DNA of 64,000 nucleotides from Styela clava (lineage: Eukaryota > Chordata > Ascidiacea > Stolidobranchia > Styelidae), in NCBI RefSeq assembly GCF_964204865.1, contig NC_135259.1, positions 11,356,974-11,420,973 of the forward strand, given 5' to 3'. This document shows positions 5,894 to 49,038 of this stretch, in pieces. The notes under the pieces were generated by a model. That model was not told where the DNA came from. It saw only the letters and a list, made by a program, of their open reading frames with translations, and ran no database searches. Each line of letters begins with the position of its first letter. The stretch's first letter is position 1. Both the position numbers and the translations under genes were made by a program.

Positions 5894-8800
5894 TCATGTG
5901 GTTGATGAAGGTTTAGAAATTGTACTATCTTTTTGGTGCAGAAAGTTGTCTGTTGGTTCCAGTCCATACCCATAAGTTGCATATGTTGCCGCTGAAGCAG
6001 CCACTGCACCAGCTCTTGCACCTTTTAAAAAGAACAAGACTTATTATTAAGGTTTGGAGTAATAAAGTAACTCAACACCAGAGTAAGGAAACAATTCATA
6101 CTATAACACATACGGTTATCAAAGAAGGTACTTAGTATCGCTTACTGACTGGCTAATTTTTTAAATGTGGCAACAAGACGGTATTTTAAATATGACATCT
6201 AAAAGTTCCAATATTCAAAATTTGTTGTGGGGCTCCAAAAATAATAGTCAACCTCTCCACAGGCTCCATAACACTAAATGTTTGAGAACCCTCGCTATAA
6301 CATGGTGAAACGCAAAATATTGTGGCAGGAGTTCTTAACCTTTATTTTCAGAAGTAAAAGTAACCTCCACATTTATTTATATTTTCACTTCTACAAATAA
6401 TGAAACCAGTTTATTTTGTTGTGTAATAAAAATTTCCTAAGGCAGGTCAAATTGGTCCTTGGGACTCCCTAATGCTTAGAATGTACACTATCTAGTAATC
6501 TAATATAGACATAACTGATTCCATATTTAATCTCAGAAGTCAGAAGTATAAAATAGTTATATTACCTGCCATAGCAGCTGCACGGCCAGTGAATATCCTT
6601 TTTGCTCTACTTGCCCTTCGACTCCTAGTTCCTATTCGAGTGGTTGAAGAACGATTATAACTTCGCTTTGGTGCTTCTGGAATCAGCGGTCTGATCCGAG
6701 GCCTTCCTCTTGCCCTGCCAGAGCCACGACCACCTCTGCCCCTAAATGATCTAACATTCGGTGTTCCTATATTGGCCGGTGAATCTAGATCATCAATAAT
6801 GATGAGATCTTCATCTTGATAACGCTGATCACTATTTCCAGAGATTCCACTGGCCGGACTAGTTGGAGCAGAATCAAAAAATGAGCTGGATTTGGAATCC
6901 TCATCTGCAGGTGCTAAAGTTCCAGTTAAAAATTTACTCTCGAATAAGTTATTTGATGGTGAGTTTGACTCGGAGTGAGATATTGTTATATTACATGAAG
7001 GGTCAGTTACTCCTTGTTCTTGCATAAGCTTGATACGTTTTTCTTCTCTTTCAGCATTAGTTTTCCTCCCTCGTTTTTTGCCTTTGTAAGGCAATATATC
7101 TCCCCTGTTTTCGTCCCTCTTCATTTTCAACTTTTGCATGAGTTGTTCATCATCAAGAAGCAGTGATACAACTTCTTTAGGCTTGAGAGCATCAGGCTTA
7201 AAACTACCCCCAGCAATAACCATTCTTTGAATAACATTTTTCTCTTCGGCACGCTGTAAAATTCTTTCATCCACTGTTCCTTGACACACAAGTCTGTATA
7301 CAGTTACCTGCTTTGTTTGTCCAAGTCGATGAGCTCGATCCATAGCTTGCTGATCGACAGTTGGATTCCAATCACTATCATAAAATATCACAGTGTCTGC
7401 AGCAGTCAAGTTGATACCTAAACCTCCTGCTCTGGTACTGAGAAGAAAGGCAAAAATATCTGAACGAGACTGAAAATCAGCAACCATATCTCTACGTTCA
7501 GAAATACGAGATGACCCATCAAGTCGAATATATGTATGTCTACGATACCACATATATTCCTCTAATATATTGATCATTCTAGTCATTTGTGAGTAAATAA
7601 GAACTCGATGTCCCTCAGCTTTCAGTCGTCTTAGTAAAACATCCAATGCATAGAGTTTACCACTATCCATTACCAAGTATTCCTTTTCAGGTATATTGAT
7701 GTTAGACCAACCAGCTGGTGGAGATAGTGCAACAAGACCCGATCCAGTGTTCGCATGCTTCCAGAATATTGTCTGTTTATTTGGGATATTAGGTGGCTGA
7801 CTCAAGCTGTAAAACTCGATATTTTCCACAGATGGGCCATACAGCAATGGAGTCATCATATCCCCAAATGATGGCTGTGATAATTCAATACAAGCATTGG
7901 TATCACAGCAGTAGATATCTTGCACACCAACTGTAATTGCAGGGAAATATAAAGACATCAGAAGCTTCGGCATCGAGATGAATTGATGCCCTTGATAAAC
8001 TGATTGTTGATTTTGATGGTCACTACTTCCATTTCTGCTTTGCAATTTTATAATTTTATTAACATGTGTATAACCATCCATGCAATATGTAGTGAAGACT
8101 AGTTTTTGAAAAGGTGATTCAGGGCAAAACCAATTCAAAAAATTTGTATCAATCAATAAGAAATCTTTTAAATTAAAATTGTTTTTTATGTCTTTTTCGT
8201 AATCATCTGGGGCATCCCGCAATAAATCATCAGAATGAAAAATATGCTTCAGATAGATAGATTTTTTGACAGTGAGCATATTTGCATTTAAAAGCCATCT
8301 AAATTTTGCGCTTGATCCCATTACTTTCCAGTACATTGTGTGTGATACGCACAGTAATCGCAGGAAAGAAAAGTCTGATGACCCATTCTGATAAAACAAT
8401 GATTGCTGAATGTTGTGTGGGTGATGAATATTCAAGTCACAGTATAAAAGTTTCCTTCTTCCTGGAGAGATTCTTGACAATATTCCCTCTCTATAAATAA
8501 GTCTTGGTAAAAAATAGAACGGAATCGGATCTGAATGCAAAGGGGAAGTGATTTCACGTCTTTCAAACAAATCTGGGTGATTGCAAACTTTTCTAAATTG
8601 CATTACAATATTCATGAGTGCTGTTCCTCCAGAGCTTACATAAGTATTTCCAGATGATTTTAAAATATCTTCTAATCTTATATTTTGTTTCACACCATTG
8701 TACAAACTTTGTTGTCGGGGAGTCAAGCTACAATGTACTCGAACCTCAATCTTCTCAGATAACTCATTTTCAACATCACGCTTTATGCGACGCAGCATAA

Positions 8801-10877
8801 AAGGTTTGAGAATCATGTGCAATCTAGAAAGCTGGGTTTCATCAATATTGGATTTATTTTCTATGTGGTTCTCAATGTCTTTTGAAAACCACTCATTGAA
8901 CTCACTGTGGCTATCAAATAAGGAAGGCATAATAAAGTGCAATAAAGCCCACAGCTCAGCCATTGTATTTTGGATTGGTGTTCCTGTTAAAAGTAGTCTG
9001 TTCCTGCAATTAAAATCAAGCAATACTTTCCATCTTGCACTAGAGCTACTTTTTAGCGCTTGAGCCTCATCAAGTACCATATATTGCCATTTTATACGTT
9101 GGAAATATCTCACATCTGATATCACAAGTTGGTAGCTTGTCACCAGGATATGAAAGGGAGCAGAATTCCTATCAGAATGGTATGATGATTTTTGATTCCA
9201 AAATTTACGCAATACCTTTCTATCATTAGGATTACCCCAGTATGGTAATACTTTAAACTCTGGGAAAAATTTTGTAAATTCCTGATGCCAATTATTAAGT
9301 GTAGATGCAGGTGCAACTACTAGAAACGGACCCCAAATATTGATTTTTTCTGCCAGATGTCCGAAAAATGCAATCGTTTGAACGGTTTTACCAAGGCCCA
9401 TTTCATCTGCCAATATTCCGTTAATTCCTTGTTCGTATAGATTAACAAGCCAATTCATACCTTTGAGCTGATAGGATTTTAACAAACCTTTGAACAAAGA
9501 AGGCTGTTTGAGTTCCTCATTGGCAGAAATACTTGGGTTCATAAGGCTGTATGACTCAGAGAATTTATTTGTTTCACTTTCTACAGAATCAAAAGTTGAG
9601 GTTTGACTTTGTTGTTGTTCAATGGCTTTCTTAACATTTTTCATAGCCTTGTCTGAATAATAACTCCCATCATGATCGTCAAAGTCATGTTCGAATGAAG
9701 CATCTTCACTCACAGACACCTGACTATCATTATCGATATAATCTTTTTCAAGAGTGTTCAATATTGATTTAATGCGTTCATCATTCTCAATACCATCATG
9801 TGCTTTACCTAACTTTTTACTGATAAAATGGGCAAAAAGTTCAGTTTGTGATATTAAAAAATTTAATTTTCTTTGTTGCCTTTTCGCTTCTCGCATTTCC
9901 TCGTCAAGTTTAATTTGCTCCAAAGCATGCTTTTCAGCCTTTTTACGATGAACTTTCTCCACTTTGCTATATTTTTTCCAAAAAAGTTGCATTTCTCTTG
10001 TAATGCGCCGAGCTCTGCCCGATTTATCTTTAGATACTTTAAGAGATAGTGCAGCATTCGCTCTCTGCCTTTTCATGGATTCCCGTGAAACTCGTCTCAA
10101 AAGTGCAAGGTTATTACTACGCAGCTGCATTCTCACACGATACGCTTTTGGAATGTCCTTTTTTGCAATGAGCTTCCAATGTCGTTTCCTTATGGTGTCT
10201 ATACTTGGCTGCTTTTTCTTTTTCGTTAAATCTGATTTACCCAGTAGCATCTGGGAATCTGGAGATTTGTAATCTGCGTCACAATATTCTTCTTTAATAT
10301 TTGTAATCCTGCCTACATCATTAGATATTCCTGAAGTAATGATCTGTTTTTGTTCTACTTTTGATTTCTTTTTCTTCTTTATTAAATGTTTTTTAAAATT
10401 CTTTCTGTGTGACGGCCACAGATCACGATTAGTTACATAATCAGAACTGTAGTATTTGTACTTTGCAAGTGCAGGTTCATTTTCCCATTTTATTTTCATT
10501 ACCTTTTTTTTCCTATGAAGTTTCAGCATTTCTCTGTAGTCTTCCTCGGTGACATCATCTTCGTCATCGCTTGTTTCCTCTTCTTCAAATATATTTTTAA
10601 TCCATGATCGAGAGGAATTAGTTTGCTTAAATCCATAAGGATTCGTGAACTTCTTGTCCAAATCTTTAATGTATAATTTATTCCTTTCACGCTCCTCTAT
10701 TCGTGCTCTGAGCTGATCTAAATATTGTCTTTTTAATTCTGCTGCTTTTGCGATTTTGTTTAAAAGCTCTCCAACACCCAGAGCCCTTTTAATACCTTGC
10801 ACATACACAGACTCAGCCATTCCATTTTGCAAAAACTGTTTTCCCTCATGTTGAGTTGCATCAAGAGGTGATTCCAT
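5894..10877 (-). CDS. INO80: INO80 chromatin-remodelling ATPase, 2 coding exons
   Basis: Exon 10877-6566 and exon 6021-5894 join across a 544-bp intron (donor GTAATA) into 1479 residues; the human protein has 1556. Upstream of the ATG the frame meets TGA within 20 nt, which supports this start. Order of parts: acidic tract (about 97-110), Lys-rich segment (about 165-175), DBINO domain (about 225-350, including LDEEMREAKRQQRKLNFLI), SNF2 ATPase lobe 1 with Walker A DEMGLGKT (about 490) and the DEAQ box (about 603), a family-specific insertion of several hundred residues, then helicase lobe 2 (about 1080-1200) with STRAGGLGINL and DRAHRLGQ. The tail has GRGRGR/RPR AT-hook-like sequence and an Ala/Gly/Tyr-rich end split by the intron. 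It is the catalytic nuclear subunit that slides nucleosomes and exchanges H2A.Z. The first 4.3 kb of coding sequence is a single exon, unusual for an animal gene of this size. Confidence 0.95.
6022..6565 (-). other. Sole coding intron of INO80
   Basis: The minus-strand donor GTAATATAAC follows ...ATGGCAG, and the acceptor ends TTAAAAAG just before GTGCAAGAGC. Splicing joins AAAMAG to ARAGAVAASA, which is the conserved Ala-rich C-terminal stretch of animal INO80. Without splicing the frame ends at 6540 after seven unrelated residues. The acceptor lacks a strong pyrimidine tract. Confidence 0.85.
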
Positions 10878-11533
10878 TATCTCGGTACAGCAGTATCATC
10901 AATACGGTACCTGTACCGGAGTCTACTAACAGACTAAGGAGTTACATTATCAATATAAAAACTCATGCTACATAAAAAAATACAAAACAGTTGAAAAGTA
11001 GAGCCATTACACAGTTACGGTACAGTAGGTACTGCAGTAGGTATCAGTACGATATGGTATGAAACGGACATGGTGGGATTCAAACTTTATGTCAAAGGTT
11101 CCATCACAAAAGTCATATTTTTCGACCGGTTCTGTTACACAGTTACATGTTTTTTTTAGTAATGCAATGCTAACCGGTTCGCTAAACTCATGAAATTCCG
11201 GGGGACGGTTCCATAGAACCGGCTGAATCCCCCCACTGGATACGAACCCGACTATAAAGGTAGGTACGATACCGGTATCACATGTACCGTATCCTGTGTA
11301 TCAGTCACTTAAAAGGTAGGTCAGTAGGTATAAAAACTGGAGAGGTACCGTAGGTATCAGTAGTAGCTACCTAGATGACTAAAAGGCTAGGGTTACATGG
11401 GTTAAGGTATCATTAAGTTACTGCTGTACTGACAGACTGATAGTAGGCCTAACCCTACCTTTATTAGTCATCTACTAGATCTACTGATACCTATCACTTT
11501 AGTCAATGATACCTGTGATACCTACCTTTTTTT
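10878..11533. repeat. INO80 upstream region with degenerate GTACCGGTA-like repeats
   Basis: This is the presumed INO80 promoter. It is rich in short, imperfect words such as GGTACCGTA, GGTATCAGTA and CAGTAGGTA in both orientations, mainly at 10,890-11,060 and 11,255-11,525. A GC-richer patch at 11,200-11,235 (ACGGTTCCATAGAACCGG and flank) is shared with the tandem duplication at 43,823-44,552. No ORF is present. Confidence 0.5.
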
Positions 11534-11955
11534 ACCACTGTGAATCGAGAGGAATTTCAGCGGAAAAATATTCTGCAGTATTCAACCGTTCCCATGCGGA
11601 AAATAATCTCTTATTACAATATTTATAAGGGATAAATGGATCCTATTTGAAATAATATGTTCCGAAGGAAACAACTCAGACCAAAATATAAGTTTAAGCA
11701 CATTTAGCTGGTAGTGGTAATTACAACATACATACCTGTATATATTACATAAAACTAAAACGTATTAAAATATATTTGCAGAATGAAAAAAAAATACAAA
11801 ATAAAAATAGGCTACAGTTGTTGGGAACACAAAAATATCGGAAAATATTTTTTTCAATGTTACATGCAAACTCTAGGGTTCGAGACCAAATGCGAATATG
11901 ATCCGCAAAGTTCCGACAATTTTTAACAGTAATTTTGAATAGTACCAATATTGAT
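11534..11955 (+). repeat. Left terminal inverted repeat, non-satellite part
   Basis: This segment is the reverse complement, with few mismatches, of 29285-29699. Shared landmarks include ATTCTGCAGT, GGTAGTGGTAATTACAAC, GGCTACAGTTGTTGGGAAC and CTCTAGGGTTCGAGACC. The left copy carries an extra 11 bp just inside the terminus (11543-11553). No coding potential. Confidence 0.9.
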
Positions 11956-13440
11956 AAGTATTATATATAAAAGTTGAAGGAAACAAAGCGGACTTTATGA
12001 TTTATGGGGTTTCAAATACAGGCCAAAAACAAGATTTTCTGAAATTTGATGCGTACTCGGTATATCGAGGCCGAATTCGAATATGTTGCTTTATATGCCG
12101 ACAACTTTCGGCAACGATTTCGATCACATGTACAAGTCAAGTGTCTAACACCAAAGTATGATTACCAGCGGAACAAAACTTAACAAAATATGGCCCTTCA
12201 AAAATTGACAAAAAATCAGATTTTGCTATATTTCGTACGAACTCAATGATTCGATGCCGAATTCGAATATGATCCGCAAAGTGCCGACAACTTTTCACAG
12301 TAATTTTGAATAGTACCAATAGTGACAAATATTATATATAAAAGTTGAGGGGAACAAAGCGGGACTTTATGATTATTGGGGCTTCAAATACAGGCCAAAA
12401 ACAAGATTTTCTGAAATTTGATGCGTACTCGACATATCGATATCGAATTCGAATATGATCCGCAAAGTGCCGACAACTTTTAACAGTAATTTTGAATAGT
12501 ACAAATAATGAAAAGTATTATATATAAAAGTTGAAGGGAGCAAAGCGGGACTTTATGATTTATGGGGCTTCAAATACAGGCCAAAAACGAGATTTTCTGA
12601 AATTTGATGCGTACTCGGTATATCGAGGCAAAATTCGAATATGTTGCTTTATATGCCGACAACTTTTGACAACGATTTCGATGACATGTACAAGTCAAGT
12701 GTCTAACACCAAAGTATGATCATCAGCAGAACTAAACTTAACAAAATATGGGCCTTCAAATATTGACGAAAAATCAGATTTTGCTGTATTTTGTGCGAAC
12801 TCAATGATTCGATGCCGAATTCGAATATGTTATTTTATTTTACGACAACTTTTGACAAGATTTCGTTTACACGTATAACCTAAGTATCAAACAACAAAGT
12901 ATGATTACCAGCGGAATGAAAATTAAAAAAATAATGCCTTTCAAAATTGATGAAAATCAGATTTTGTCATATTTATTGCGATATCAACTATTCGACCCCG
13001 AATTCGAATATGTTATTTTATTTTCCGACAATTTTTGACTATGATTTCGTTTATATGTATACCTCAAGTCTACAACAACAAAGTATGATGACCAGCGGAA
13101 TTAAAATTGAATAATTATGGGCCTTCAAAAATTGATAAAAATCTGAATTTGTCATATTTGGTGCGAGATTCGACGCCAACTTCGAATATGTTATTCTATT
13201 TTCCGACAACTTTTGACAACGATTTCGAAAACATGTATAACTAAAGTGTCCACCAACAAAGTATGATCACCAGCAGAATGAAAATCAAAAAAATATGGGC
13301 CTTCAATAGTTGTATGAAAATCAAATTTTGTCATATTTGGTGCGATATCGATTTTTCGACGCCAAATTCAAATATGTTATTCTATTTTCCGAAAAATTTT
13401 GACAATGATTTCCTATGGCATGTATATATAATTCTAGAGT
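11956..13440 (-). repeat. Left satellite arm (reverse orientation)
   Basis: There are roughly eight 186-bp monomers in the reverse orientation. The outer ones (to about 12,720) match the outer end of the right arm down to rare variants. The inner four (about 12,720-13,440) are much more diverged: the landmark AAAGTATGAT recurs at 12711, 12896, 13080 and 13258, spaced 178-185 bp. These inner units do not show the A/B dimer alternation, so they look like old, unhomogenised monomers. Confidence 0.85.
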
Positions 13441-13745
13441 GTTAACGGATTAAGCCGTTATTTCAAAATATCAGTCAGCTGTGGGCTCGGTGATGTTCGC
13501 CTGGGATAGATTTATAATTGATAATTACACGGAAGCAGAATCTGAATTATTTAAATATGAATGAGTAACTTCTTAGTATATATTTTTATATATTATATTA
13601 GTATATTAGGTAAAAAGAAAGAACATTTGTAGTTTTCAAGCGGATTTTAGAAGCATACTATGTCGCTATTTGTTCTGCTAATTCTTTTCCGCATTTGTAT
13701 TAAAAGGTTCATGATGAGTAAAACAACATAAAAATTCAAAGTCGC
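13441..13745. other. Central spacer between the divergent satellite arms
   Basis: This is the only non-satellite DNA inside the 18-kb block. It is AT-rich, with TATATTTTTATATATTATATTAG-like low complexity around 13,580-13,610, and has no ORF of note. In a foldback or DNA transposon this is where a transposase would sit; at 305 bp it is too short to encode one. Confidence 0.7.
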
Positions 13746-16700
13746 TGTATGAATCGAATCATCGAGTTCGCACGAAATTCATCAAAATCTGATTTTTCGT
13801 CAATTTTTGAAGGGCCATATTTTGTTAAGTTTTGTTTCGCTGTTGATCATACTTTGTTGTTAGACACTTGACTTTTACATGTGATCGAAATCGTTGTCAA
13901 AAGTTGTCGGCATATAAAGCAACATATTCGAATTCGGCCTCGATACATCGAGTTCGCATCAAATTTCAGAAATCTTGTTTTTGGCCTGTATTTGAAGCCC
14001 CATAAATCATAAAGTCCCGCTTTGTTCCCTTCAACTTTTATATATATTACTTTTCACTATTGGTAATATTCAAAATTACTGTTAAAATTTGTCGGCACTT
14101 TGCGGATCATATTCGAATTCGGCATCGAATCATTGAGTTCGCACGAAATACAGCAAAATCTGATTTTTCGTCAATTTTTGAAATGCCATATTTTGTTAGG
14201 TTTTGTTCCGCTGTTGATCATACTTTGGTGTTAGACACTTGACTTGTACATGTCATCAAAATCGTTGTCAAAAGTTGTCGGCAAATGAAGCAACATGTTC
14301 GAATTCGGCCTCGATGTATCGAGTTCGCATCAAATTTCGGAAAATCTTGTTTTTGGCCTGTATTTGAAGCCTCATAAATCATAAAGTCGCGCTTTGTTTC
14401 CTTCAACTTTTATATATAATACTTTTCACTATTGGTACTATTCAAAATTACTGTTAAAATTTGTCGGCACTTTGCGGATCATATTCGAATTCGGCATCGA
14501 GTCATTGAGTTCGCACTAAATACATCAAAATCTGATTTTTCGTCAATTTTTGAAGGGCCACATTTTGTTAGGTTTTGTTCCGCTGTTGATCATACTTTGG
14601 TGTTAGACACTTGACTTATACATGTGATCGAAATCGTTGTCAAAAGTTGACGGTATATAAAGCAACATATTCGAATTCGGCCTCGGTATATCGAGTACGC
14701 ATCAAATTTCAGAAAATTTTGTTTTTGGCCTGTATTTGAAGCCCCATAAATCATAAAGTCCCGCTTTGTTCCCTTCAAATTTTATATATAATACTTTTCA
14801 CTACTGGTACTATTCAAAATTACTGTTAAAAGTTGTCGGCACTTTGCGGATCATATTCGTATTTGGCATCGAATTATTAAGTTCGCACGAAATATAGCAA
14901 ATTATGATTTTTTGTCAATATTTGAAGGGCCATATTTTGTTAAGTTTTGTTCCGCTGTTGATAATACTTTGGTGTTAGACACTTGACTTGTACTTGTCAT
15001 CGAAATCGTTGTCAAAGCTTGTCGGCAAATAAAGCAACAAGTTCGAATTCGGCCTCGATATATCGAGTTCGCATCAAATTTCGGAAAATCTTGTTTTTGA
15101 CCTGTATTTGAAACCCCATAAATCATAAAGTCCAGCTTTGTTCCCTTCAACTTTTATATATAATACTTTTCCCTATTGGTACTATTCCAAATTACTGTTA
15201 AAAGTTGTCGGCACTTTGCGGATCATATTCGAATTCGGCATCGAGTCATTGAGTTCGCACGAAATACATCATAATATGATTTTTCGTTAATTTTTGAAGG
15301 GCCATATTTTGTTAAGTTTTGTTCCGCTGTTGATCATACTTTGGTGTTAGACACTTGACTTATACATGTGATCGAAATCGTTGTCAAAAATTGTCGGCAT
15401 ATAAAGCAACATATTCGAATTCGGCCTCGGTATATCGAGTACGCATCAAATTTCAGAAAATCTTGTTTTTGGCCTGTATTTGAAGCCCCATAAATCATAA
15501 ACTCCCGCTTTGTTCCCTTCAACTTTTATATATAATACTTTTCACTATTGGTACTATTTATAATTACTGTTAAAAGTTGTCGGCACTTTGCGGATCATAT
15601 TTGTATTTGGCATCGAATTATTAAGTTCGCACGAAATATAGCAAATTATGATTTTTTGTCAACTTTTGAAGGGCCATATTTTGGTAAGTTTTGTTCCGCT
15701 GTTGATCATACTTTGCTGTTAGACACTTGACTTGTACATGTCAGCAAAATCGTTGTCAAAATTTGTCGGCAAATGAAGCAACAAGTTCGAATTTGGCCTG
15801 GATGTATCGAGTTCGCATCAAATTTCGGAAAATCTTGTTTTTGGCCTGTAGTTGAAGCCCCATAAATCATAAAGTCCCGCTTTGTTTCCTTCAACTTTTA
15901 TATATAATACTTTTCATTATTGGTACTATTCAAAATTACTATTAAAAGTTGTCGTGACTTTGCGGATCATATTCGAATTCGGCATCGAATGATTGAGTTC
16001 GCTCGAAATATAGCAAAATCTGATTTTTCGTCAATGTTTGAAGGGCCATACTTTGTTAAGTTTTGTTCCGCTGTTGATCATACTCTGGTGTTAGACACTT
16101 GACTTATACATGTGATCGAAATCGTTTTCAAAAGTTGTCGGCATATAAAGCAACATGTTCGAATTCGGCCTCGATATATCGAGTACGCATCAAATTTTAG
16201 AAAATCTTGTTTTTGGCCTGTATTTGAAGCCCCATAAATCATAAAATCCCGCTTTGTTCCCTTCAACTTTTATATATAATACTTTTAACTATTGGTACTA
16301 TTCACAATTACTGTTAAAAGTTGTCGGCACTTTGCGGATCATATTTGTATTTGGCATCGAATTATTAGGTTCGCACGAAATATAGCAAATTATGATTTTT
16401 TGTCAATTTTTGAAGGGCCATATTTTGGTAAGTTTTGTTCCGCTGTTGATCATACTTTGGTGTTAGACACTTGACTTGTACATGTCAGCGAAATCGTTGT
16501 CAAAATTTGTAGGGCAAATGAAGCAACAAGGTCGAATTTGGCCTGGATGTATCGAGTTCGCATCAAATTTCGGAAAATCTTGTTTTTGGCCTGTAGTTGA
16601 AGCCCCATAAATCATAAAGTCCCGCTTTGTTCCCTTCAACTTTTATATATAATACTTTTCACTATTGGTACTATTCAAAATTACTATTAAAAGTTGTCGT

Positions 16701-19700
16701 GACCTTGCGGATCATATTCGAATTCGGCATCGAATGATTGAGTTCGCTCGAAATATAGCAAAATCTGATTTTTCGTCAATGTTTGAAGGGCCATACTTTG
16801 TTAAGTTTTGTTCCGCTGTTGATCATACTCTGGTGTTAGACACTTGACTTATATATGTGATCGAAATCGTTGTCAAAAGTTGTCGGCATATAAAGCAACA
16901 TGTTCGAATTCGGCCTCGATATATCGAGTACGCATCAAATTTCAGAAAATCTTGTTTTTGGCCTGTATTTGAAGCCCCATAGATCATAAAGTCCCGCTTT
17001 GTTCCCTTCAACTTTTATATATAATACTTTTCACTATTGGTACTATTCAAAATTACTGGTAAAAGTTGCCGGCATATTGCGGATCATATTCGTATTCGGC
17101 ATCGAATTATTAAGTTCGCTCGAAATATAGCAAATTATGATTTTTTGTCAATTTTGGAAGGGCAATATTTTGTTAAGTTTTGTTCCGATGTTGATCATAC
17201 TTCGGTGTTAGACACTTGACTTGTACATGTCATCGAAATCATTGTCAAAAATTGTCGGCAAATAAAGCAACATGTTAGAATTTGGCCTCGATGTATCGAG
17301 TTCGCATCAAATTTCGGAAAATCTTGTTTTTGACCTGTATTTGAAGCCCTATAAATCATAAAGTCCCGCTTTGTTCCCTTCAACTATTATATATAATACT
17401 TTTCACTATTGGTACTATTCAAAATTACTATTAAAAGTTGTCGTGACTTTGCGGATCATATTCGAATTTGGCATCGAATGATTGAGTTCGCTCGAAATAC
17501 AGCAAAATCTGATTTTTCGTCAATGTTTGAAGGGTCATACTTTGTTAAGTTTTGTTCCGCTGTTGATCATACTTTGGTGTTAGACACTTGACTTATACAT
17601 GTGATCGAAATCGTTGTCAAAAGTTGTCGGCATATAAAGCAACATATTCGAATTCGGCCTCGATATATCGAGTACGCATCAAATTTCAGAAAGTCTTGTT
17701 TTGGGCCTGTATTTGAAGCCCCATAAATCATAAAGTCCCGCTTTGTTTCCTTCAACTTTTATATATAATACTTTTCACTATTGGTACTCTTCAAAATTAC
17801 TGGTAAAAGTTGTCGTGACTTTGCGGATCATATTCGAATTCGGCATCGAATGATTGAGTTCGCTCGAAATACAGCAAAATCTGATTTTTCGTCAATGTTT
17901 GAAGGGCCATACTTTGTTAAGTTTTGTTCCGCTGTTGATCATACTTTGGTGTTGAACACTTGACTTATACATGTGATCGAAATCGTTGTCAAAAGTTGTC
18001 GGCATATAAAGCAACATATTCGAATTCGGCATCGATTTATCGAGTACGCATCAAATTTCAGAAAATCTTGTTTTTGGCCTGTATTTGAAGCCCCATAAAT
18101 CATAAAGTCCCGCTTTGTTCCCTTCAACTTTTATATATAATACTTTTCACTATTGGTACTATTTAAAATTACTATTAAAAGTTGTCGTGACTTTGCGGAT
18201 CATATTCGAATTCGGCATCGAATGATTGAGTTCGCTCGAAATAGAGCAAAATCTGATTTTTCGTCAATGTTTGAAGGGCCATATTTTGGTAAGTTTTGTT
18301 CCGGTGTTGATCATACTTTGGTGTTAGACACTTGACTTGTACATGTCATTGAAATCATTGTCAAAAATTGTCGGCAAATAAAGCAACATGTTAGAATTTG
18401 GCCTCGATGTATCGAGTTCGCATCAAATTTCGGAAAATCTTGTTTTTGACCTGTATTTGAAGCCCTATAAATCATAAAGTCCCGCTTTGTTCCCTTCAAC
18501 TTTTATATATAATACTTTTCACTATTGGTACTATTCAAAATTACTATTAAAAGTTGTCGTGACTTTGCGGATCATATTCGAATTCGGCATCGAATGATTG
18601 AGTTCGCTCGAAATACAGCAAAATCTGATTTTTCGTCAATGTTTGAAGGGCCATACTTTGTTAAGTTTTGTACCGCTGTTGATCATACTTTGGTGTTAGA
18701 CACTTGACTTATACATGTGATCGAAATCGTTGTCAAAAGTTGTCGGCATATAAAGCAACATATTCGAATTCGGCATCGATATGTCGAGTACGCATTGAAT
18801 TTCAGAAAATCTTGTTTTTGGCCTGTATTTGAAGCCCCAATAATCATAAAGTCCCGCTTTGTTCCCCTCAACTTTTATATATAATACTTGTCACTATTGA
18901 GACTATTCAAAATTACTGGTAAAAGTTGTCGGCATTTTGTGGATCATATTCGAATTCGGCATCGAATCATTGAGTTCGTACGAAATATAGCAAAATCTGA
19001 TTTTTTGTCAATTTTTGAAGGGCCATATTTTGTCAAGTTTTGTTCCGCTGATAATCATACTTTGGTGTTAGACACTTGTCTTATACATGTGATTGAAATC
19101 GTTGTCAAAAGTTGTCGGAATATAGAGCAACATATTCGAATTCGGCCTCGATATATCGAGTACGCATCAAATTTCGGAAAATCTTGTTTTTGGCCTGTAT
19201 TTGAAGCCCCATAAATCATAAAGTCCCGCTTTGTTCCCTTCAACTTTCATATATAATGCTTTCCACTAGTGGTACTATTCAAAATTACTGTTAAAAGTTG
19301 TCGGCACTTTGCGGATCATATTTGTATTTGGCATCGAATTATTAAGTTCGCACAAAATATAGCAAATTATGATTTTTTGTCAATTTTTGAAGGGCCCTAT
19401 TTTGGTAAGTTTTGTTCCGCTGTTGGTCATACTTTGGTGTTAGACACTTGACTTGTACATGTCATCGAAATCGTTGTCTAAATTTGTCGGCAAATAAAGC
19501 AACAAGTTCGAATTTGGCCTGAATGTATCGAGTTCGCATCAAATTTCGGAAAATCTTGTTTTTGGCCTGTAGTTGAAGCCGCATAAATCATAAAGTCCCG
19601 CTTTGTTCCCTTCAACTTTTATATATAATATTTTTCACTATTGGTACTATTCAAAATTACTATTAAAAGTTGTCGTGACTTTACGGATCATATTCGAATT

Positions 19701-22700
19701 CGGCATCGAATGATTGAGTTCGCTCGGAATACAGCAAAATCTGATTTTTTGTCAATATTTGAAGGGCCATATTTTGGTAAGTTTTGTTCCGCTGTTGATC
19801 ATACTTTGGTGTTAGACACCTGACTTGTACATGTCATCGAATTGTCGGCAAATAAAGCAACAAGTTCGAATTTGGCCTGGATGTATCGAGTTCGCATCAA
19901 ATTTCGGAAAATCTTGTTTTGGCCTGTAGTTGAAGCCCCATAAATCATAAAGTCCCGCTTTGTTCCCTTCAACTTTTATATATAATACTTTTCACTATTG
20001 GTACTATTCAAAATCACTATTAAAAGTCGTCGTGACTTTGCGGATCATATTCGAATTCGGCATCGAATGATTGAGTACGCTCGGAATACAGCAAAATCTG
20101 ATTTTTCTTCAATGTTTGAAGGGCCATACTTTGTTAGGTTTTGTTCCGCTGTTGATCATACTTTGGTGTTAGACACTTGACTTATACATGTGATCGAAAT
20201 CGTTGTCAAAAGTTGTCGGCATATAAAGCAACATATTCGAATTCGGCCTCGATATATCGAGTACGCATCAAATTTCAGAAAATCTTGTTTTTGGCCTGTA
20301 TTTGAAGCCCCATAAATCATAAAGTCCCGCTTTGTTCCCTTCAACTTTTATATATAATACTTTTCACTATTGGTACTATTCAAAATTACTGGTAAAAGTT
20401 GTCTGCATATTGCGGATCATATTCGTATTCGGCATCGAATTATTAAGTTCGCTCGAAATATAGCAAATTATGATTTTTTGTCAATTTTTGAAGGGCCATA
20501 TTTTGTTAGGTTTTGTTCCGCTGTTGATCATACTTCGGTGTTAGACACTTGACTTGTATATGTCATCGAAATCATTGTTAAAAATTGTCGGCAAATAAAG
20601 CAACATGTTCGAATTTGGCCTCGATGTATCGAGTTCGCATCAAATTTCGGAAAATCTTGTTTTTGACCTGTATTTGAAGTCCTATAAATCATAAAGTCCC
20701 GCTTTGTTCCCTTCAACTTTTATATATAATACTTTTCACTATTGGTACTATTCAAAATTAATATTAAAAGTTGTCGTGACTCTGCGGATCATATTCGAAT
20801 TCGGCATCGAATGATTGAACTCGCTCGATATAGAGCAAAATCTGATTTTTCGTCAATGTTTGAAGGGCCATACTTTGTTAAGTTTTGTTCCGCTGTTGAT
20901 CATACTTTGGTGTTAGACACTTGACTTATACATGTGATCGAAATCGTTGTCAAAAGTTGTCGGCATATAAAGCAACATGTTCGAATTCGGTCTCGATATA
21001 TCGAGTACGCATCAAATTTCAGAAAATCTTGTTTTTGGCCTGTATTTGAAGCCCCATAAATCATAAAGTCCCGCTTTGTTCCCTTCAACTTTTATATATA
21101 ATACTTTTCACTATTGGTACTATTCAAAATTACTGGTAAAAGTTGTCGGCATATTGCGGATCATATTCGTATTCGGCATCGAATTATTAAGTTCGCTCGA
21201 AATATAGCAAATTATGATTTTTTGTCAATTTTTGAAGGGCCATATTTTGTTAAGTTTTGTTCCGCTGTTGATCATACTTCGGTGTTAGACACTTGACTTG
21301 AACATGTCTTCGAAATCTTTGTCAAAAATTGTCGACAAATAAAGCAACATGATCGAATTTGACCTCGATGTATCGAGTTCGCATCAATTTTCGGAAAATC
21401 TTGTTTTTGACCTGTATTTGGAGCCCTATAAATCATAAAGTCCCGCTTTGTTCCCTTCAACTTTTATATATAATACTTTTCACTATTGGTACTATTCAAA
21501 ATTACTATTAAAAGTTGTCGTGACTCTGCGGATCATATTCGAATTCGGCATCGAATGATTGAGTTCGCTCGAAATACAGCAAAATCTGATTTTTCGTCAA
21601 TGTTTGAAGGGCCATACTTTGTTAAGTTTTGTTCCGCTGTTGATCATACTTTGGTGTTAGACACTTGACTTGTACATGTCATCGGAATCATTGTCAAAAA
21701 TTGTCGGCAAATAAAGCAACATGTTCGAATTTGGCCTCGATGTATCGAGTTCGCATCAAATTTCGGAAAATCTTTTTTTTGACCTGTATTTGAAGCCCTC
21801 TAAATCATAAAGTCCCGCTTTGTTCCCTTCAACTTTTATATATAATACTTTTCACTATTGGTACTATTCAAAATTACTGGTAAAAGTTGTCGGCATATTG
21901 CGGATCATATTCGTATTCGGCATCGAAATATTAAGTTCGCTGGAAATATAGCAAATTATGATTTTTTGTCAATTTTTGAAGGGCCATATTTTGTTGAGTT
22001 TTGTTCCGCTGTTGATCATACTTTGGTGTTAGACACTTGACTTGTACATGTCATCGAAATCATTGTCAAAAATTGTCGGCATATAAAGCAACATGTTCGA
22101 ATTTGGCCTCGATGTATCGAGTTCGCATCAAATTTCCGAAAATCTTGTTTTTGACCTGTATTTGAAGCCCTATAAATCATAAAGTCCCGCTTTGTTCCCT
22201 TCAACTTTTATATATAATACTTTTCACTATTGGTACTATTTAAAATTACTATTAAAAGTTGTCGTGACTTTGCGGATCATATTCGAATTCGGCATCGAAT
22301 GATTGAGTTCGCTCGAAATACAGCAAAATCTGATTTTTCGTCAATGTTTGAAGGGCCATAATTTGTTAAGTTTTGTTCCGCTGTTGATCATACTTTGGTG
22401 TTAGACACTTGACTTATACATGTGATCGAAATCGTTGTCAAAAGTTGTCGGCATATAAAGCAACATATTCGAATTCGGCATCGATATGTCGAGTACGCAT
22501 TGAATTTCAGAAAATCTTGTTTTTGGCCTGTATTTGAAGCCCCAATAATCATAAACTCCCGCTTTGTTCCCTTCAACTTTTATATATAATACTTTTCACT
22601 ATTGGTACTATTCAAAATTACTGGTAAAAGTTGTCGGCACTTTGCGGATCATATTTCTATTTGGCATCGAATTATTAAGTTCGCACAAAATATAACAAAT

Positions 22701-25700
22701 TATGATTTTTTGTCAATTTTTGAAGGGCCCTATTTTGGTAAGTTTTGTTCCGCTGTTGGTCATACTTTGGTGTTAGACACTTGACTTGTACATGTCATCG
22801 AAATCGTTGTCTAAATTTGTCGGCAAATAAAGCAACAAGTTCGAATTTGGCCTGAATGTATCGAGTTCGCATCAAATTTCGGAAAATCTTGTCTTCTGGC
22901 CTGTAGTTGAAGCCGCATAAATCATAAAGTCCCGCTTTGTTCCCTTCAACTTTTATATATAATATTTTTCACTATTGGTACTATTCAAAATTACTATTAA
23001 AAGTTGTCGTGACTTTACGGATCATATTCGAATTCGGCATCGAATGATTGAGTTCGCTCGAAATACAGCATAATCTGATTTTTTGTCAATTTTTGAAGGG
23101 CCATATTTTGGTAAGTTTTGTTCCGCTGTTGATCATACTTTGGTGTTAGACACTTGACTTATACATGTGATCAAAATCGTTGTCAAAAGTTGTCGGCATA
23201 TAAAGCAACATATTCGAATTCGGCCTCGATATATCGAGTACGCATCAAATTTCAGAAAATCTTGTTTTTGGCCTGTATTTGAAGCCCCATAAATCATAAA
23301 GTCCCGCTTTGTTCCCTTCAACTTTTATATATAATACTTTTCACTATTGGTACTATTCAAAATTACTGGTAAAAGTTGTCGGCATATTGCGGATCATATT
23401 CGTATTCGGCATCGAATTATTAAGTTCGCTCGAAATATAGCAAATTATGATTTTTTGTCAATTTTTGAAGGGCCATATTTTGTTAAGTTTTGTTCCGCTG
23501 TTGATCATACTTCGGTGTTAGACACTTGACTTGTACATGTCATGAAATCATTGTTAAAAATTGTCGGCAAATAAAGCAACATGTTCGAATTTGGCCTCGA
23601 TATATCGAGTTCGCATCAAATTTCGGAAAATCTTGTTTTTGACCTGTATTTGAAGCCCTATAAATCATAAAGTCCCGCTTTGTTCCCTTCAACTTTTATA
23701 TATAATATTTTTCACTATTGGTACTATTCAAAATTGATATTAAAAGTTGTCGTGACTCTGCGGATCATATTCGAATTCGGCATCGAATGATTGAGTTCGC
23801 TCGAAATACAGCAAAATCTGATTTTTCGTCAATGTTTGAAGGGCCATACTTTGTTAAGTTTTGTTCCGCTGTTGATCATACTTTGGTGTTAGACACTTGA
23901 CTTATACATGTGATCGAAATCGTTGTCAAAAGTTGTCGGCATATAAAGCAACATGTTCGAATTCGGCCTCGATATATCGAGTACGCATCAAATTTCAGAA
24001 AATCTTGTTTTTGGCCTGTATTTGAAGCCCCATAAATCATAAAGTCCCGCTTTGTTCCCTTCAACTTTTATATATAATACTTTTCACTTTTGGTACTATT
24101 CAAAATTACTGGTAAAAGTTGTCGGCATATTGCGGATCATATTCGTATTCGGCATCGAATTATTAAGTTCGCTCGAAATATAGCAAATTATGATTTTTTG
24201 TCAATTTTTGAAGGGCCATATTTTGTTAAGTTTTGTTCCGCTGTTGATCATACTTCGGTGTTAGACACTTGACTTGAACATGTCTTCGAAATCATTGTCA
24301 AAAATTGTCGGCAAATAAAGCAACATGTTCGAATTTGACCTCGATGTATCGAGTTCGCATCAATTTTCGGAAAATCTTGTTTTTGACCTGTATTTGGAGC
24401 CCTATAAATCATAAAGTCCCGCTTTGTTCCCTTCAACTTTTATATATAATACTTTTCACTATTGGTACTATTCAAAATTACTATTAAAAGTTGTCGTGAC
24501 TCTGCGGATCATATTCGAATTCGGCATCGAATGATTGAGTTCGCTCGAAATACAGCAAAATCTGATTTTTCGTCAATGTTTGAAGGGCCATACCTTGTTA
24601 AGTTTTGTTCCGCTGTTGATCATACTTTGGTGTTAGACACTTGACTTGTACATGTCATCGAAATCATTGTCAAAAATTGTCGGCAAATAAAGCAACAAGT
24701 TCGACTTTGGCCTCGATGTATCGAGTTCGCATCAAATTTCGGAAAATCTTTTTTTTGACCTGTATTTGAAGCCCTATAAATCATAAAGTCCCGCTTTGTT
24801 CCCTTCAACTTTTATATATAATACTTTTCACTATTGGTACTATTCAAAATTACTGGTAAAAGTTGTCGGCATATTGCGGATCATATTCGTATTCGGCATC
24901 GAATTATTAAGTTCGCTGGAAATATAGCAAATTATGATTTTTTGTCAATTTTTGAAGGGCCATATTTTGTTGAGTTTTGTTCCGCTGTTGATCATACTTT
25001 GGTGTTAGACACTTGACTTGTACATGTCTTCGAAATCATTGTCAAAAATTGTCGGCAAATAAAGCAACATGTTCGAATTTGGCCTCGATGTATCGAGTTC
25101 GCATCAAATTTCAGAAAATCTTGTTTTTGACCTGTATTTGAAGCCCTATAAATCATAAAGTCCCGCTTTGTTCCCTTCAACTTTTATATATAATATTTTT
25201 CACTATTGGTACTATTCAAAATTGATATTAAAAGTTGTCGTGACTCTGCGGATCATATTCGAATTCGGCATCGAATGATTGAGTTCGCTCGAAATACAGC
25301 AAAATCTGATTTTTCGTCAATGTTTGAAGGGCCATACTTTGTTAAGTTTTGTTCCGCTGTTGATCATACTTTGGTGTTAGACACTTAACTTATACATGTG
25401 ATCGAAATCGTTGTCAAAAGTTGTCGGCATATAAAGCAACATGTTCGAATTCGGCCTCGATATATCGAGTACGCATCAAATTTCAGAAAATCTTGTTTTT
25501 GGCCTGTATTTGAAGCCCCATAAATCATAAAGTCCCGCTTTGTTCCCTTCAACTTTTATATATAATACTTTTCACTTTTGGTACTATTCAAAATTACTGG
25601 TAAAAGTTGTCGGCATATTGCGGATCATATTCGTATTCGGCATCGAATTATTAAGTTCGCTCGAAATATAGCAAATTATGATTTTTTGTCAATTTTTGAA

Positions 25701-28700
25701 GGGCCATATTTTGTTAAGTTTTGTTCCGCTGTTGATCATACTTCGGTGTCAGACACTTGACTTAAACATGTCTTCGAAATCATTGTCAAAAATTGTCGGC
25801 AAATAAAGCAACATGTTCGAATTTGACCTCGATGTATCGAGTTCGCATCAATTTTCGGAAAATCTTGTTTTTGACCTGTATTTGGAGCCCTATAAATCAT
25901 AAAGTCCCGCTTTGTTCCCTTCAACTTTTATATATAATACTTTTCACTATTGGTACTATTCAAAATTACTATTAAAAGTTGTCGTGACTCTGCGGATCAT
26001 ATTCGAATTCGGCATCGAATGATTGAGTTCGCTCGAAATACAGCAAAATCTGATTTCTCGTCAATGTTTGAAGGGCCATACTTTGTTAAGTTTTGTTCCG
26101 CTGTTGATCATACTTTGGTGTTAGACACTTGACTTGTACATGTCATCGAAATCATTGTCAAAAATTGTCGGCAAATAAAGCAACATGTTCGACTTTGGCC
26201 TCGATGTATCGAGTTCGCATCAAATTTCGGAAAATCTTTTTTTTGACCTGTATTTGAAGCCCTATAAATCATAAAGTCCCGCTTTGTTCCCTTCAACTTT
26301 TATATATAATACTTTTCACTATTGGTACTATTCAAAATTACTGGTAAAAGTTGTCGGCATATTGCGGATCATATTCGTATTCGGCATCGAATTATTAAGT
26401 TCGCTGGAAATATAGCAAATTATGATTTTTTGTTAATTTTTGAAGGGCCATATTTTGTTGAGTTTTGTTCCGCTGTTGATCATACTTTGGTGTTGGACAC
26501 TTGACTTGTACATGTCTTCGAAATCATTGTCAAAAATTGTCGGCAAATAAAGCAACATGTTCGAATTTGGCCTCGATGTATCGAGTTCGCATCAAATTTC
26601 AGAAAATCTTGTTTTTGACCTGTATTTGAAGCCCTATAAATCATAAAGTCCCGCTTTGTTCCCTTCAACTTTTATATATATTACTTTTCACTATTGGTAC
26701 TATTCAAAATTACTATTAAAAGTTGTCGTGACTTTGCGGATCATATTCGAATTCGGCATCGAATGATTGAGTTCGCTCGAAATACAGCAAAATCTGGTTT
26801 TTCGTCAATGTTTGAAGGGCCATACTTTGTTAAGTTTTGTTCCGCTGTTGATCATACTTTGGTGTTGGACACTTGACTTATACATGTGATCGAAATCGTT
26901 GTCAAAAGTTGTCGGCATATAAAGCAACATATTCGAATTCGGCATCGATTTATCGAGTACGCATCAAATTTCAGAAAATCTTGTTTTTGGCCTGTATTTG
27001 AAGCCCCATAAATCATAAAGTCCCGCTTTGTTCCCTTCAACTTTATATATAATACTTTTCACTATTAGTACTATTCAAAATTACTATTAAAAGTTGTCGT
27101 GACTCTGCGGATCATATTTGTATTCGGCATCGAATTATTAAGTTCGCTCGAAATATAGCAAATTATGATTTTTTGTCAATTTTGAAGGGCCATATTTTGT
27201 TAAGTTTTGTTCCGCTGTTGATCATACTTTGTTGTTAGACACTTGACTTGTTTATGTCATCGAAATCGTTGTCAAAAGTTGTCGGCAAATAAAGCAACAT
27301 GTTCGAACTTGGCCTCGATATACCGAGTACGCATCAAATTTCAGAAAATCTTGTTTTTGGCCTGTATTTGAAGCCCCATAAATCATAAAGTCCAGCATTG
27401 CTCCCTTCAACTTTTATATATAATACTTTTTCACTATTTGTACTATTCAAAATTACTGTTAAAAGTTGTCGGCACTTTGCGGATCATATTCGAATTCGGC
27501 ATCGAATCATTCAGTTCGCACGAAATACAGCAAAATCTGATTTTCCGTCAATTTTTGAAGGGCCATATTTTGTTAAGTTTTGTTCCGCTGTTGATCATAC
27601 TTTGGTGTTAGACACTTGTCTTATACATGTGATTGAAATCGTTGTCAAAAGTTGTCGGAATATAAAGCAACATATTCGAATTCGGCCTCGATATATCGAG
27701 TACGCATCAAGTTTCAAAAAATCTTGTTTTTGGCCTGTATTTGAAGCCCCATAAATCATAAAGTCCCGCTTTGTTCCCTTCAACTTTTATATATAATGCT
27801 TTCCACTATTGGTACTATTCAAAATTACTGTTAAAAATTGTCGGCACTTTGCGGATCATATTCGAATTCGGCCTCGATATATCGAGTACGCATCAAATTT
27901 CAGAAAATTTTGTTTTTGGCCTGTATTTGAAGCCCCATAAATCATAAAGTCCCGCTTTGGTCCCTTCAACTTTTTTATATAATACTTTTCACTATTGGTA
28001 ATATTCAAAATTACTGTTAAAAGTTGTCGGCACTTTGCGGATCATATTCGAATTCGGCATCGAATCATTGAGTTCGCACGAAATACAGCAAAATCTGATT
28101 TTTTGTCAAATTTGAAGGGCCATATTTTGTTAAGTTTTGTTCCGCTGTTGATCATACTTTGGTGTTAGACACTTGACTTGTACATTTCATCGAAATCGTT
28201 GTCAAAAGTTGTTTGCAAATAAAGCAACATGTTCGAATTTGGCTTCGATATATCGAGTTCGCATCAAATTTCGGAAAATCTTGTTTTTGGCCTGTATTTG
28301 AAGCCCCATAAATCATAAAGTCCCGCTTTGTTCCCTTCAACTTTTATATATAATGCTTTTCACTATTGGTACTATTCAAAATTACTGTGAAAAGTTGTTG
28401 GCTCTTTGCGGATCATATTCGAATTTGTCATCGAATCATTGAGTTCGCACGAAATACAGCAAAATCTGATTTTTCGTCAATTTTTGATGGGCCATATTTT
28501 GTTGAGTTTTGTTCCGCTGTTGATCATACTTTGGTGTTAGACACTTGACTTGTTCATGTCATCGAAATCGTTGTCAAAAGTTGTCGGCAAATAAAGCAAC
28601 ATGTTCGAATTTGGCCTCGATATACCGAGTACGCATCAAATTTCAGAAAATCTTGTTTTTGGCCTGTATTTGAAGCCCCATAAATCATAAAGTCCAGCTT

Positions 28701-29290
28701 TGCTCCCTTCAACTTTTTTATATAATACTTTTCACTATTTGTACTATTCAAAATTACTGTTAAAAGTTGTCGGCACTTTGCGGATCATATTCGAATTCGA
28801 TATCGATATGTCGAGTACGCATCAAATTTCAGAAAATCTTGTTTTTGGCCTGTATTTGAAGCCCCAATAATCATAAAGTCCCGCTTTGTTCCCCTCAACT
28901 TTTATATATATTACTTGTCACTATTGGTACTATTCCAAATTACTGTGAAAAGTTGTCGGCACTTTGCGGATCATATTCGAATTCGGCATCGAATCATTGA
29001 GTTCGTACGAAATATAGCAAAATCTGATTTTTTGTCAATTTTTGAAGGGCCATATTTTGTTAAGTTTTGTTCCGCTGGTAATCATACTTTGGTGTTAGAC
29101 ACTTGACTTGTACATGTGATCGAAATCGTTGCCGAAAGTTGTCGGCATATAAAGCAACATATTCGAATTCGGCCTCGATATACCGAGTACGCATCAAATT
29201 TCAGAAAATCTTGTTTTTGGCCTGTATTTGAAACCCCATAAATCATAAAGTCCCGCTTTGTTCCCTTCAACTTTTATATATAATACTTAT
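13746..29290 (+). repeat. Right satellite arm, about 42 copies of a 372-bp unit
   Basis: The unit is 372 bp, a diverged dimer of two 186-bp monomers. A contains TTGCGGATCATATTCG and B contains AAAGCAACATRTTCGAA; both share GTTGTCGGCA, TCGAATT(C/T)GGC, TCGAGT and TTTGAAG landmarks, and TTGTCGGC recurs 186 bp apart (14833, 15019). Successive units start near 14060, 14432, 15548, 15920, 16292 and so on, with rare phase slips (373 bp at 16292-16665, 357 bp at 19641-19998). B monomers often carry the perfect palindrome CTCGATATATCGAG. Larger blocks repeat too, at 1488 bp (23718/25206, 24248/25736, 24620/26108). The 60- and 62-codon open frames on both strands recur only because 372 is divisible by three. 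The array looks non-coding. Confidence 0.95.
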
Positions 29291-29699
29291 CAATATTGGT
29301 ACTATTCAAAATTACTGTTAAAAATTGTCGGAACTTTGCGGATCATATTCGCATTTGGTCTCGAACCCTAGAGTTTGCATGTAACATTGAAAAAAATATT
29401 TTCCGATATTTTTGTGTTCCCAACAACTGTAGCCTATTTTTATTTTGTATTTTTTTTCATTCTGCAAATATATTTTAATACGTTTTAGTTTTATGTAATA
29501 TATACAGTTATGTATGTTGTAATTACCACTACCAGCTAAATGTGCTTAAACTTATATTTTGGTCTGAGTTGTTTCCTTCGGAACATATTATTCCAAATAG
29601 GATCCATTTATCTCTCATAAATATTGTAATAAGAGATTATTTTCAGCATGGGAACCGGTTGAAAACTGCAGAATATTTTTCCGCTGAAATCACAGTGGT
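29285..29699 (-). repeat. Right terminal inverted repeat, non-satellite part
   Basis: Inverted partner of 11534-11955. It ends CTGCAGAATATTTTTCCGCTGAAATCACAGTGGT-like (final motif CACAGTGGT) and is followed directly by CTTTTTTT. Mismatches against the left copy are scattered single bases plus the 11-bp indel near the tip. Confidence 0.9.
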
Positions 29700-29707
29700 C
29701 TTTTTTT

Positions 29708-30215
29708 GGGGCAACCCTAAAATGCGGGAAACCGGAACGACAGGAAATGCACTAAAATGCGGGAACTGCGGGAAAGACGGGAAATCGCGAAAACTAAAAT
29801 GCGGGAACTACGGGAATGACGGGAACTACGGGAATGACGGGATCTACGGGAAATTTCACTAAAAAGCGGGAAATTTCACAAAACGCGAGAATGACGGGAA
29901 ATCGCTTTAAGGTACGGGAAATATTCATTTTGGGGTATGTTTAGAGGAAATTGTTCCAGAAAGCGAAAGCAACGGTAAATATACGCTTGGGCGTGTATGT
30001 ACGTGAAAATTTATCTAAAATGCGGGAATGACGGCAAATCGCTTTAAATCACGGGAAATACTCATTTCAGAGTATGTTTATAAGAAATTGCACTAGAAAA
30101 CGGAAGCAACGGGAAATATACGCTTGGGTTGTGTGGATACGGAAATTTCACTAAAAAGCGAAAAATTTCACAAAGAGTGGGAGCGACGGAAATCGCTCTA
30201 AGATTCGGATAATAT
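29708..30215. repeat. Degenerate GCGGGAAnnACGGGAA minisatellite
   Basis: Short purine-rich words (GCGGGAACTACGGGAATGAC and variants) repeat from 29,725 to 29,880. A longer unit of about 137 bp follows: ATGACGGNAAATCGCTTTAA at 29,890 and 30,028, with a weaker third copy near 30,183. It directly abuts the right end of the giant element. The + strand is open for about 100 codons across it, but the product would be low-complexity Gly/Lys/Asn repeats and is not treated as a gene. Confidence 0.75.
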
Positions 30216-45081: not shown

Positions 45082-45086
45082 ATGAT

Positions 45087-45289: not shown

Positions 45290-45319
45290 GGTTATGGGCC
45301 CAGCACGCTTCCGCTGCGC
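45290..45319 (+). promoter_or_regulatory. Primer-binding site: internal initiator-tRNA complement
   Basis: The 30 nt following the LTR, beginning GGTTATGGGCCCAGCACG, are complementary to the anticodon-stem/loop and D-arm side of animal initiator methionine tRNA rather than its 3' end. Drosophila copia is known to be primed by such a 5' half of tRNA-iMet. The match is judged against the tRNA sequence from memory. Confidence 0.8.
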
Positions 45320-49006: not shown

Positions 49007-49038
49007 CCTAATTCGGAGAAATTTCAATTAAGTGGGAG

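Follow-up and report, generated by a model that had tools for sequence, protein, structure and literature searches.

How satellite DNA is born, how it disperses and how it acquires a higher-order structure are long-standing questions. The closest known element to the one described here is Tetris of Drosophila virilis, for which, in the parts of the report considered, foldback arms were already linked to an emerging satellite and larger arrays were suggested as possibly disrupting transposition (PMC4079207). In Galileo of Drosophila, a binding site of the transposase was located by footprinting and, according to the portions of the paper drawn on here, further sites occur in the tandem repeats of the arms (PMC3688188). 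Here we describe an 18-kb element in a 64,000-nucleotide stretch of the genome of the ascidian Styela clava (contig NC_135259.1, denoted C13; the whole stretch is referred to as the window). The element is a copy of a dispersed family of foldback-type DNA transposons with arms made of satellite DNA. Among the matches listed in the open-licence literature on transposons and satellites of S. clava, nothing was found on this element.

The window copy consists of two unique terminal domains in inverted orientation, two satellite arms that run in opposite directions and a short core between the arms, and is flanked by an exact 8-bp direct repeat (Table 1). The initial annotation of the window, which was made from the letters alone, had proposed a foldback-like element with these borders, this flanking repeat and oppositely oriented arms of a higher-order satellite, all of which are borne out. 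The termini are inverted and non-repetitive as it had stated, but they measure ~346 and ~335 bp instead of about 420 bp, and the inverted identity runs on into the satellite. In inverted alignment, the two terminal domains are identical at 326 of 334 aligned bases with 13 gap columns, and the outer ~1.3 kb, satellite included, at 1254 of 1285 aligned bases with 26 gap columns. The two arms are markedly unequal, being 1.5 kb on the left and 15.6 kb on the right. Two types of monomers of ~186 bp each, A and B, together form a 372-bp dimer, 42.0 copies of which are found at 13753-29355. In the right arm A and B alternate almost strictly, while the left arm contains runs of A and runs of B. The A monomers of the right arm show a mean identity of 0.937 at a spacing of two dimers (744 bp) vs. 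0.909 at one, and even spacings are more alike than odd ones, which is a second-order register.

The 376.6-Mb host genome was searched with the 347-bp left end, which yielded at least 41 matches (best 40 of 57 candidates scored). The matches were grouped into 23 loci, E01 to E23, where E01 is the window copy, and the ends were read at the other 22. A tip pattern with up to three mismatches allowed found 42 tips genome-wide, 25 on the plus and 17 on the minus strand, and the reversed control pattern found 0. Exact 8-bp target-site duplications (TSDs) were identified in 12 of the 19 copies with both ends comparable, all at different sites, and E13 has a duplication of 9 bp. The rearranged copy E17 was counted as a miss in this tally, which was made without E08 (one tip read, with an unrelated repeat after the arm) and without E19, E20, E21 and E23 (one tip each). 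When flanks were paired across different copies (n = 399), a match at all eight positions was reached only by the reciprocal pairs of E04 and E05. Satellite is found in both orientations at 18 of the 23 loci, in a single orientation in the stretch read at E08, E17, E19 and E23, and not at all at E21. The anatomy common to the family is a ~340-bp unique end, a satellite arm, a short core, an inverted satellite arm and a second end; the ten elements measured range from 2649 bp to the 18166 bp of the window copy. The further copies that the initial annotation had suggested looking for exist, with different flanks, 8-bp duplications and different array lengths. Precise tips common to the copies, together with exact 8-bp duplications, are a signature of transposase-mediated insertion. 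Chance or a local artefact is excluded by the recurrence of tips, arms and duplications across many loci. Long inverted arms of tandem repeats that vary in length and duplications at independent sites assign the family to the foldback structural class, and long tandem arrays with higher-order registers identify the arm repeats as satellite DNA. The Mutator superfamily is defined by 8-11-bp target duplications and long inverted repeats. Duplications of 8-9 bp and long inverted repeats are Mutator-like traits of the present family, which are also common to other superfamilies.

A gene-bearing relative of 19.4 kb was identified on contig C1 (Table 1), in which inverted satellite arms enclose a broken gene that combines PHD, DDE-like, Ulp1-like and ubiquitin-hydrolase parts. 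PHD was found in the copy of this gene on contig C18, and the C1 gene has UCH in two of its pieces, while Peptidase_C48 was found in five of the 16 sequences scanned and a SENP1-like stretch (E 0.0015) in L037, a member of a paralogue family. The paralogues share ~42% identity with the gene and have open frames of up to 1950 amino acids; by hand count, 22 of 102 paralogue matches are uninterrupted in frames of 1200-1950 amino acids. D206, E539, C326 and H329 are conserved in all 16 sequences compared, and D280 in nearly all. Among solved structures, those most similar to the predicted DDE region of L037 are ISCth4, the P element, Hermes and retroviral integrases, and ISCth4 and Hermes were also at the top for an earlier and poorer model (mean predicted local distance difference test score, pLDDT, of 61). 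Matches to structures other than DDE enzymes (Argonautes, MutS, RNase H and affimers), some of them with high Foldseek probability over ~100 columns, were set aside. The autonomous relative that the initial annotation had proposed to look for is found in part: a gene-bearing relative exists, but its gene is broken, and the Pfam scans of the gene sequences list no THAP, no hAT dimerisation domain and no KDZ family. An assignment to P, hAT or Mutator by sequence is not supported by these scans. A fish relative of the transposase-like gene carries a macro domain.

The cores link the small copies to the gene-bearing one. Among the matches listed, the 3' end of the C1 gene shows ~79% identity to the long cores of E07 and E12. 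With one another, the long cores of E07, E12, E15, E18 and E20 share 89-98% identity. The 326-bp core of the window copy is common to E02, E03 (in part), E04, E05, E09, E13 and E14 at 95-98%; its identity to the cores of E02, E04, E05 and E09, which measure 364-366 bp, is 95-97%. Two short stretches of this common core of ~366 bp resemble the C1 element beside its right arm, one with 70% identity over 87 columns and the other with 83% over 63 columns. Because the longer cores keep remnants of the gene 3' end, the small copies look like internal-deletion derivatives in which the arms were kept, and the window copy is probably one of these.

Similarity of tips and ends divides the copies into three subfamilies: S1 with CCG tips (E01-E14 and E16), S2 (E15 and E17-E20) and S3 (the C1 element, E22 and E23). 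Right tips typically end in ...TTCCGCTGAAATTCCGCTGGATTCACAGTGGT in S1 and in ...TTCTGCTGAAATTCTGCTGGATTCACAGTGGT in S2 and S3, and the outer tip motif is altered in E02 and E12. An 8-bp motif of the tip, TTCCGCTG or TTCTGCTG, is repeated in the satellite and keeps its orientation with respect to the tip. Among full A-type monomers, TTCCGCTG is found in 199 of 233 in S1, 0 of 38 in S2 and 0 of 13 in S3, while TTCTGCTG is found in 12 of 233, 33 of 38 and 12 of 13, respectively. The satellite consensus sequences of S1 and S2 are 96% identical, and that of S3 is 81% identical to either. As its satellite is the most divergent, S3 is the likely outgroup, so that CCG is likely to be derived in tip and satellite alike. 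When the columns of the satellite were shuffled, with one representative end per subfamily, a common variable window of eight columns arose in 20 of 5000 trials, and two such windows are observed. Between the representative ends of S1 and S3, the subfamilies furthest apart, the outer 54 bp are identical at 51 of 54 positions and the rest of the terminal domain at 200 of 286, and two of the three differences in the outer 54 bp are in the tip motif. As the motif covaries in tips and satellite, the simplest reading is that one protein binds both, and its change along with the satellite across the three subfamilies suggests that the arms are putative transposase-binding arrays.

The arms also differ in how their monomers are arranged. 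Mean identities were compared by spacing in 15 arms, without a significance test, and registers above the dimer were found to be specific to the locus: two dimers in the right arm of E01, three in the right arm of E04, the left arms of E07 (slight) and E15 and in E17, and four in the left arm of E10, which gives registers of 372, 744, 1116 and 1488 bp across the copies. The A monomers of S1 have a mean identity of 0.933 to others in their own arm, 0.941 to those in the opposite arm of their element and 0.925 to those in other elements, and the corresponding values for B monomers are 0.939, 0.936 and 0.929. Homogenisation across both arms is seen for the A monomers of E07, E11 and E13, at 0.95-0.97 vs. 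~0.935 to others. We infer from these patterns that the arms were amplified locally by unequal exchange, with some exchange between arms. The arms of S3 are made up of A-like monomers, with a B-like one beside a tip in E22 and E23, so that the A-B dimer probably arose later than the monomeric arms. The satellite motif TTCYGCTGNTGATCATACTTTG, with up to one mismatch, occurs at 327 sites in the loci read and the window.

Two loci bear the marks of rearrangement. E04 and E05, which are 137 kb apart on contig C2 in direct orientation, have reciprocal 8-bp flanks, ACCACCAA...TACTATTC in one and TACTATTC...ACCACCAA in the other, and are close kin, as their cores are 99.45% identical and the tip variant CGCAGTGG is common to both. 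This swap of flanks fits integration of a circle, exchange or alternative transposition. A simple inversion between E04 and E05 is excluded by the direct, not inverted, orientation of the swapped flanks. At E17 (C4:10620900-10633800), the tips are found within an inverted duplication of flanking DNA; the matching stretches, comprising flank and end, are ~1.16 kb long and 94.3% identical and extend to the limit of the stretch read.

Based on these results, we consider it highly probable that the window element is a non-autonomous, cut-and-paste foldback transposon with satellite arms that is served by a transposase in trans, originated by internal deletion and grew by local amplification of its arms. 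We propose that a DDE-type transposase, provided in trans by relatives that bear the gene, may recognise the tips and the outer ~54 bp, and that 8 bp of the target would be duplicated upon insertion. A gene-bearing ancestor with inverted satellite arms would have lost nearly all of its gene and kept its arms to become the window copy. The arms would be arrays of a ~186-bp unit in which each or every second monomer carries a copy of the 8-bp tip motif with its tip-relative orientation kept, which makes an array of additional binding sites for the transposase the most likely interpretation of the satellite. Unequal exchange after insertion would then lengthen or shorten the arms locally and produce the copy-specific registers, and the same exchange may partially homogenise the two arms of some elements. 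In this proposal the protein of the C1 type would be the transposase of the window family, the motif its binding site and unequal exchange the amplifier. A bolder form of the proposal, which is possible but which we hold with less than even confidence, is that the satellite is the working part of the transposon and no passenger, consisting of transposase-binding sites in tandem that evolve together with the tip motif and are amplified in place after each jump, and that the transposase belongs to a PHD/DDE/Ulp1/ubiquitin-hydrolase lineage with a core outside the Pfam models scanned. If so, cut-and-paste transposition would be both a generator and a distributor of higher-order satellite arrays, and mobile DNA would have a concrete route to make and spread satellite DNA. 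Several stages can be compared within one genome, from a gene-bearing type with monomeric arms through derivatives with dimeric arms to separate insertions, some with a higher register of their own (744-1488 bp). With the covariation, the general idea that satellites are seeded by foldback arms becomes testable as binding to a single 8-bp motif. The combination of PHD, a DDE-type core, Ulp1-like and ubiquitin-hydrolase parts is unusual and, along with paralogues with long frames, is useful for classifying animal DNA transposons.

Several observations weigh against this interpretation. In one alternative, the arms would be genomic satellite DNA unrelated to the transposon, captured by it or expanded beside it and taking no part in transposition, and the motif would be the product of chance and a CpG change. 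An 8-bp match is short, an exact 8-mer common to tip and satellite is not rare in itself and the same window comparison found no common window of nine columns; moreover, the difference between the two motifs is a C/T transition at a CpG, the B monomers of S1 are without the motif and the window copy has only one intact motif per tip (CAGCGGAA on the left, where the outer motif is changed to GAGAGGAA, and TTCCGCTG on the right, where a short deletion removed the outer one). We nevertheless regard capture as unlikely, although it deserves real weight, given that inverted arms of homologous repeats are present in all three subfamilies, the gene-bearing one included, that all 150 satellite matches listed (of 348 in total, the query's own copy not being listed) were assigned by eye to known element loci, and that TTCTGCTG is found in both tip and satellite of S2 and S3 and TTCCGCTG in both for S1, even though the satellites of S1 and S2 differ so little. 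In another alternative, the window copy would be moved by a different enzyme, for instance a paralogue with a long open frame, with the C1 element as a fellow passenger. The C1 gene is in several open pieces, the same-family copies on C1, C6 and C18 are all interrupted, with no intact transposase among them, and the paralogues in turn include 22 of 102 rows of at least 1200 amino acids. Pfam finds no DDE family in the 16 sequences, and the PHD match of L037 is slightly below the curated cut-off. The C1 arms were read except for C1:17316861-17317999 and 17333501-17336189, beside the tips; around the C6 gene copy a tip was found at a distance of ~8 kb, but the 13.5 kb read there contain no satellite, and for the C18 copy (E23) a single tip was read. 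That the C1, C6 and C18 copies nevertheless adjoin tips or arms of the window family, while L037, the sole other gene place read, has no tip or satellite of the family within the 8 kb read, makes this alternative about as unlikely as capture.

Dispersal of the arrays by recombination, through reintegration of extrachromosomal circles or ectopic exchange and with the transposase not as the main agent, is improbable. The reciprocally swapped flanks of E04 and E05 are what exchange, circle integration or alternative transposition predict, and both arms are homogenised in some elements. Recombination, however, accounts for the rearranged copies and not for dispersal, as the tips are precise and common and most of the two-ended copies have exact duplications. 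Against the main interpretation, it also counts that perfect TSDs are missing from E14 (4 of 8 positions), E18 and E22 (6 of 8 each) and E17, and that the duplication of the window copy, CTTTTTTT, is of low complexity and weak alone, becoming convincing through the other copies of the family. The local growth of the arms is also not uniform, since 9 of the 15 arms analysed are without a clear higher register and the nearest relative is in another element for 103 of the 233 A monomers of S1. Such arrays are hard to assemble and the structure is known here from the assembly alone, but an 18-kb artefact of collapsed or misjoined repeats is very improbable in view of the loci with both satellite orientations, their independent flanks and duplications and their locus-specific registers. 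The transposon with satellite arms, which the initial annotation had favoured, is supported over these alternatives.

Table 1. Coordinates of the window element, its parts and related loci (positions without a contig name are those of the window).
Feature	Position	Strand	Basis or remark
Foldback-type transposon copy E01	11534-29699 (window is C13:11356974-11420973)		Borders exact
TSD, left copy, 8 bp, CTTTTTTT	11526-11533		Direct sequence reading
Left unique terminal domain, ~346 bp, tip ACCACTGTG	11534-11879	+	End comparison, tip inventory
Left satellite arm, 1.5 kb, 186-bp monomers	11879-13426	-	Orientation coverage, monomer string
Non-satellite core, 326 bp	13427-13752		Core comparison
Right satellite arm, 15.6 kb, 372-bp A-B dimers	13753-29365	+	Tandem-repeat and monomer analysis
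Right unique terminal domain, ~335 bp, inverted copy of the left one	29365-29699	-	End alignment
TSD, right copy, 8 bp, CTTTTTTT	29700-29707		Flank comparison
Gene-bearing relative, 19.4 kb	C1:17316814-17336239		Duplication ATTGTATC on both sides, tips at both coordinates
E04/E05 loci	C2:23790138-23800506 and C2:23937739-23942012
Transposase-like paralogue, example	L037:522-6203	-

Other features of the window include an INO80 open frame at 6540-10877, which is 100% identical to a S. clava protein. The element begins 657 bp from the start of this frame, although the gene may in fact start elsewhere, given that the protein in the database has 34 residues more than the frame. By eye, a CAACCC...CGGG-type repeat is common to the right flank of the window copy (29708-29891) and the left flank of E15, so that the two copies seem to be inserted beside the same kind of repeat. 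A Copia-like retrotransposon, named by eye from its open frame, occupies 45084-49241, with terminal repeats of 206 bp that are 99.5% identical (45084-45289 and 49036-49241). The duplicated segments at 50593-55151 and 58384-60965 are 93.6-97% identical and hold an unnamed membrane-protein-like gene, with a 440-amino-acid frame at 58160-59482 on the minus strand. A 365-bp unit is present in two tandem copies, 99.7% identical, at 43823-44553, and an array of a ~95-bp repeat at 63573-64000 continues past the end of the window.

A search of the open-licence literature found no foldback transposon with PHD, Ulp1 and ubiquitin-hydrolase parts or with PHD. Zisupton/KDZ elements encode an accessory Ulp1-type protease. 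The Pfam scans of the Styela gene list no KDZ family, in a comparison made without a reference protein; what is shared with Zisupton, in the part of the report considered, is the 8-bp duplication (PMC12730594). Tm1, a Mutator/Foldback family of root-knot nematodes, resembles the present family in its composite inverted repeats of variable length, its gene-bearing members alongside members like miniature inverted-repeat transposable elements and its 9-bp duplications, but it has a Phantom-type putative transposase of 496 amino acids, and its abstract mentions no satellite-sized higher-order arms (PMC3169594). Galileo, of the P superfamily, is similar in having long, internally repetitive inverted repeats and sequence exchange among copies, but the parts of the reports considered describe a THAP/P-type transposase, whereas the Styela gene has PHD, Ulp1-like and ubiquitin-hydrolase parts and no THAP in Pfam, and the Styela arm repeats form multi-kilobase higher-order arrays (PMC3688188; PMC3573991). 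Tetris, too, is a foldback element without coding sequence and has a unique outer domain, tandem repeats of ~220 bp in its inverted repeats and a middle domain; it makes 8-10-bp duplications, and its repeats are also found in longer satellite-like arrays of up to 66 copies (PMC4079207). Its inverted repeats, however, reach 1,735 bp, three copies are structurally complete and no transposase was found, as far as the sections of the report considered go (PMC4079207). The Styela family is set apart by description, with arms of up to 15.6 kb in TSD-bounded copies, a repeat whose higher-order unit is a dimer, and a partner that bears a gene. What is new is the very long arms in copies bounded by TSDs, the locus-specific registers, the gene-bearing partner and the motif that covaries in tip and satellite.

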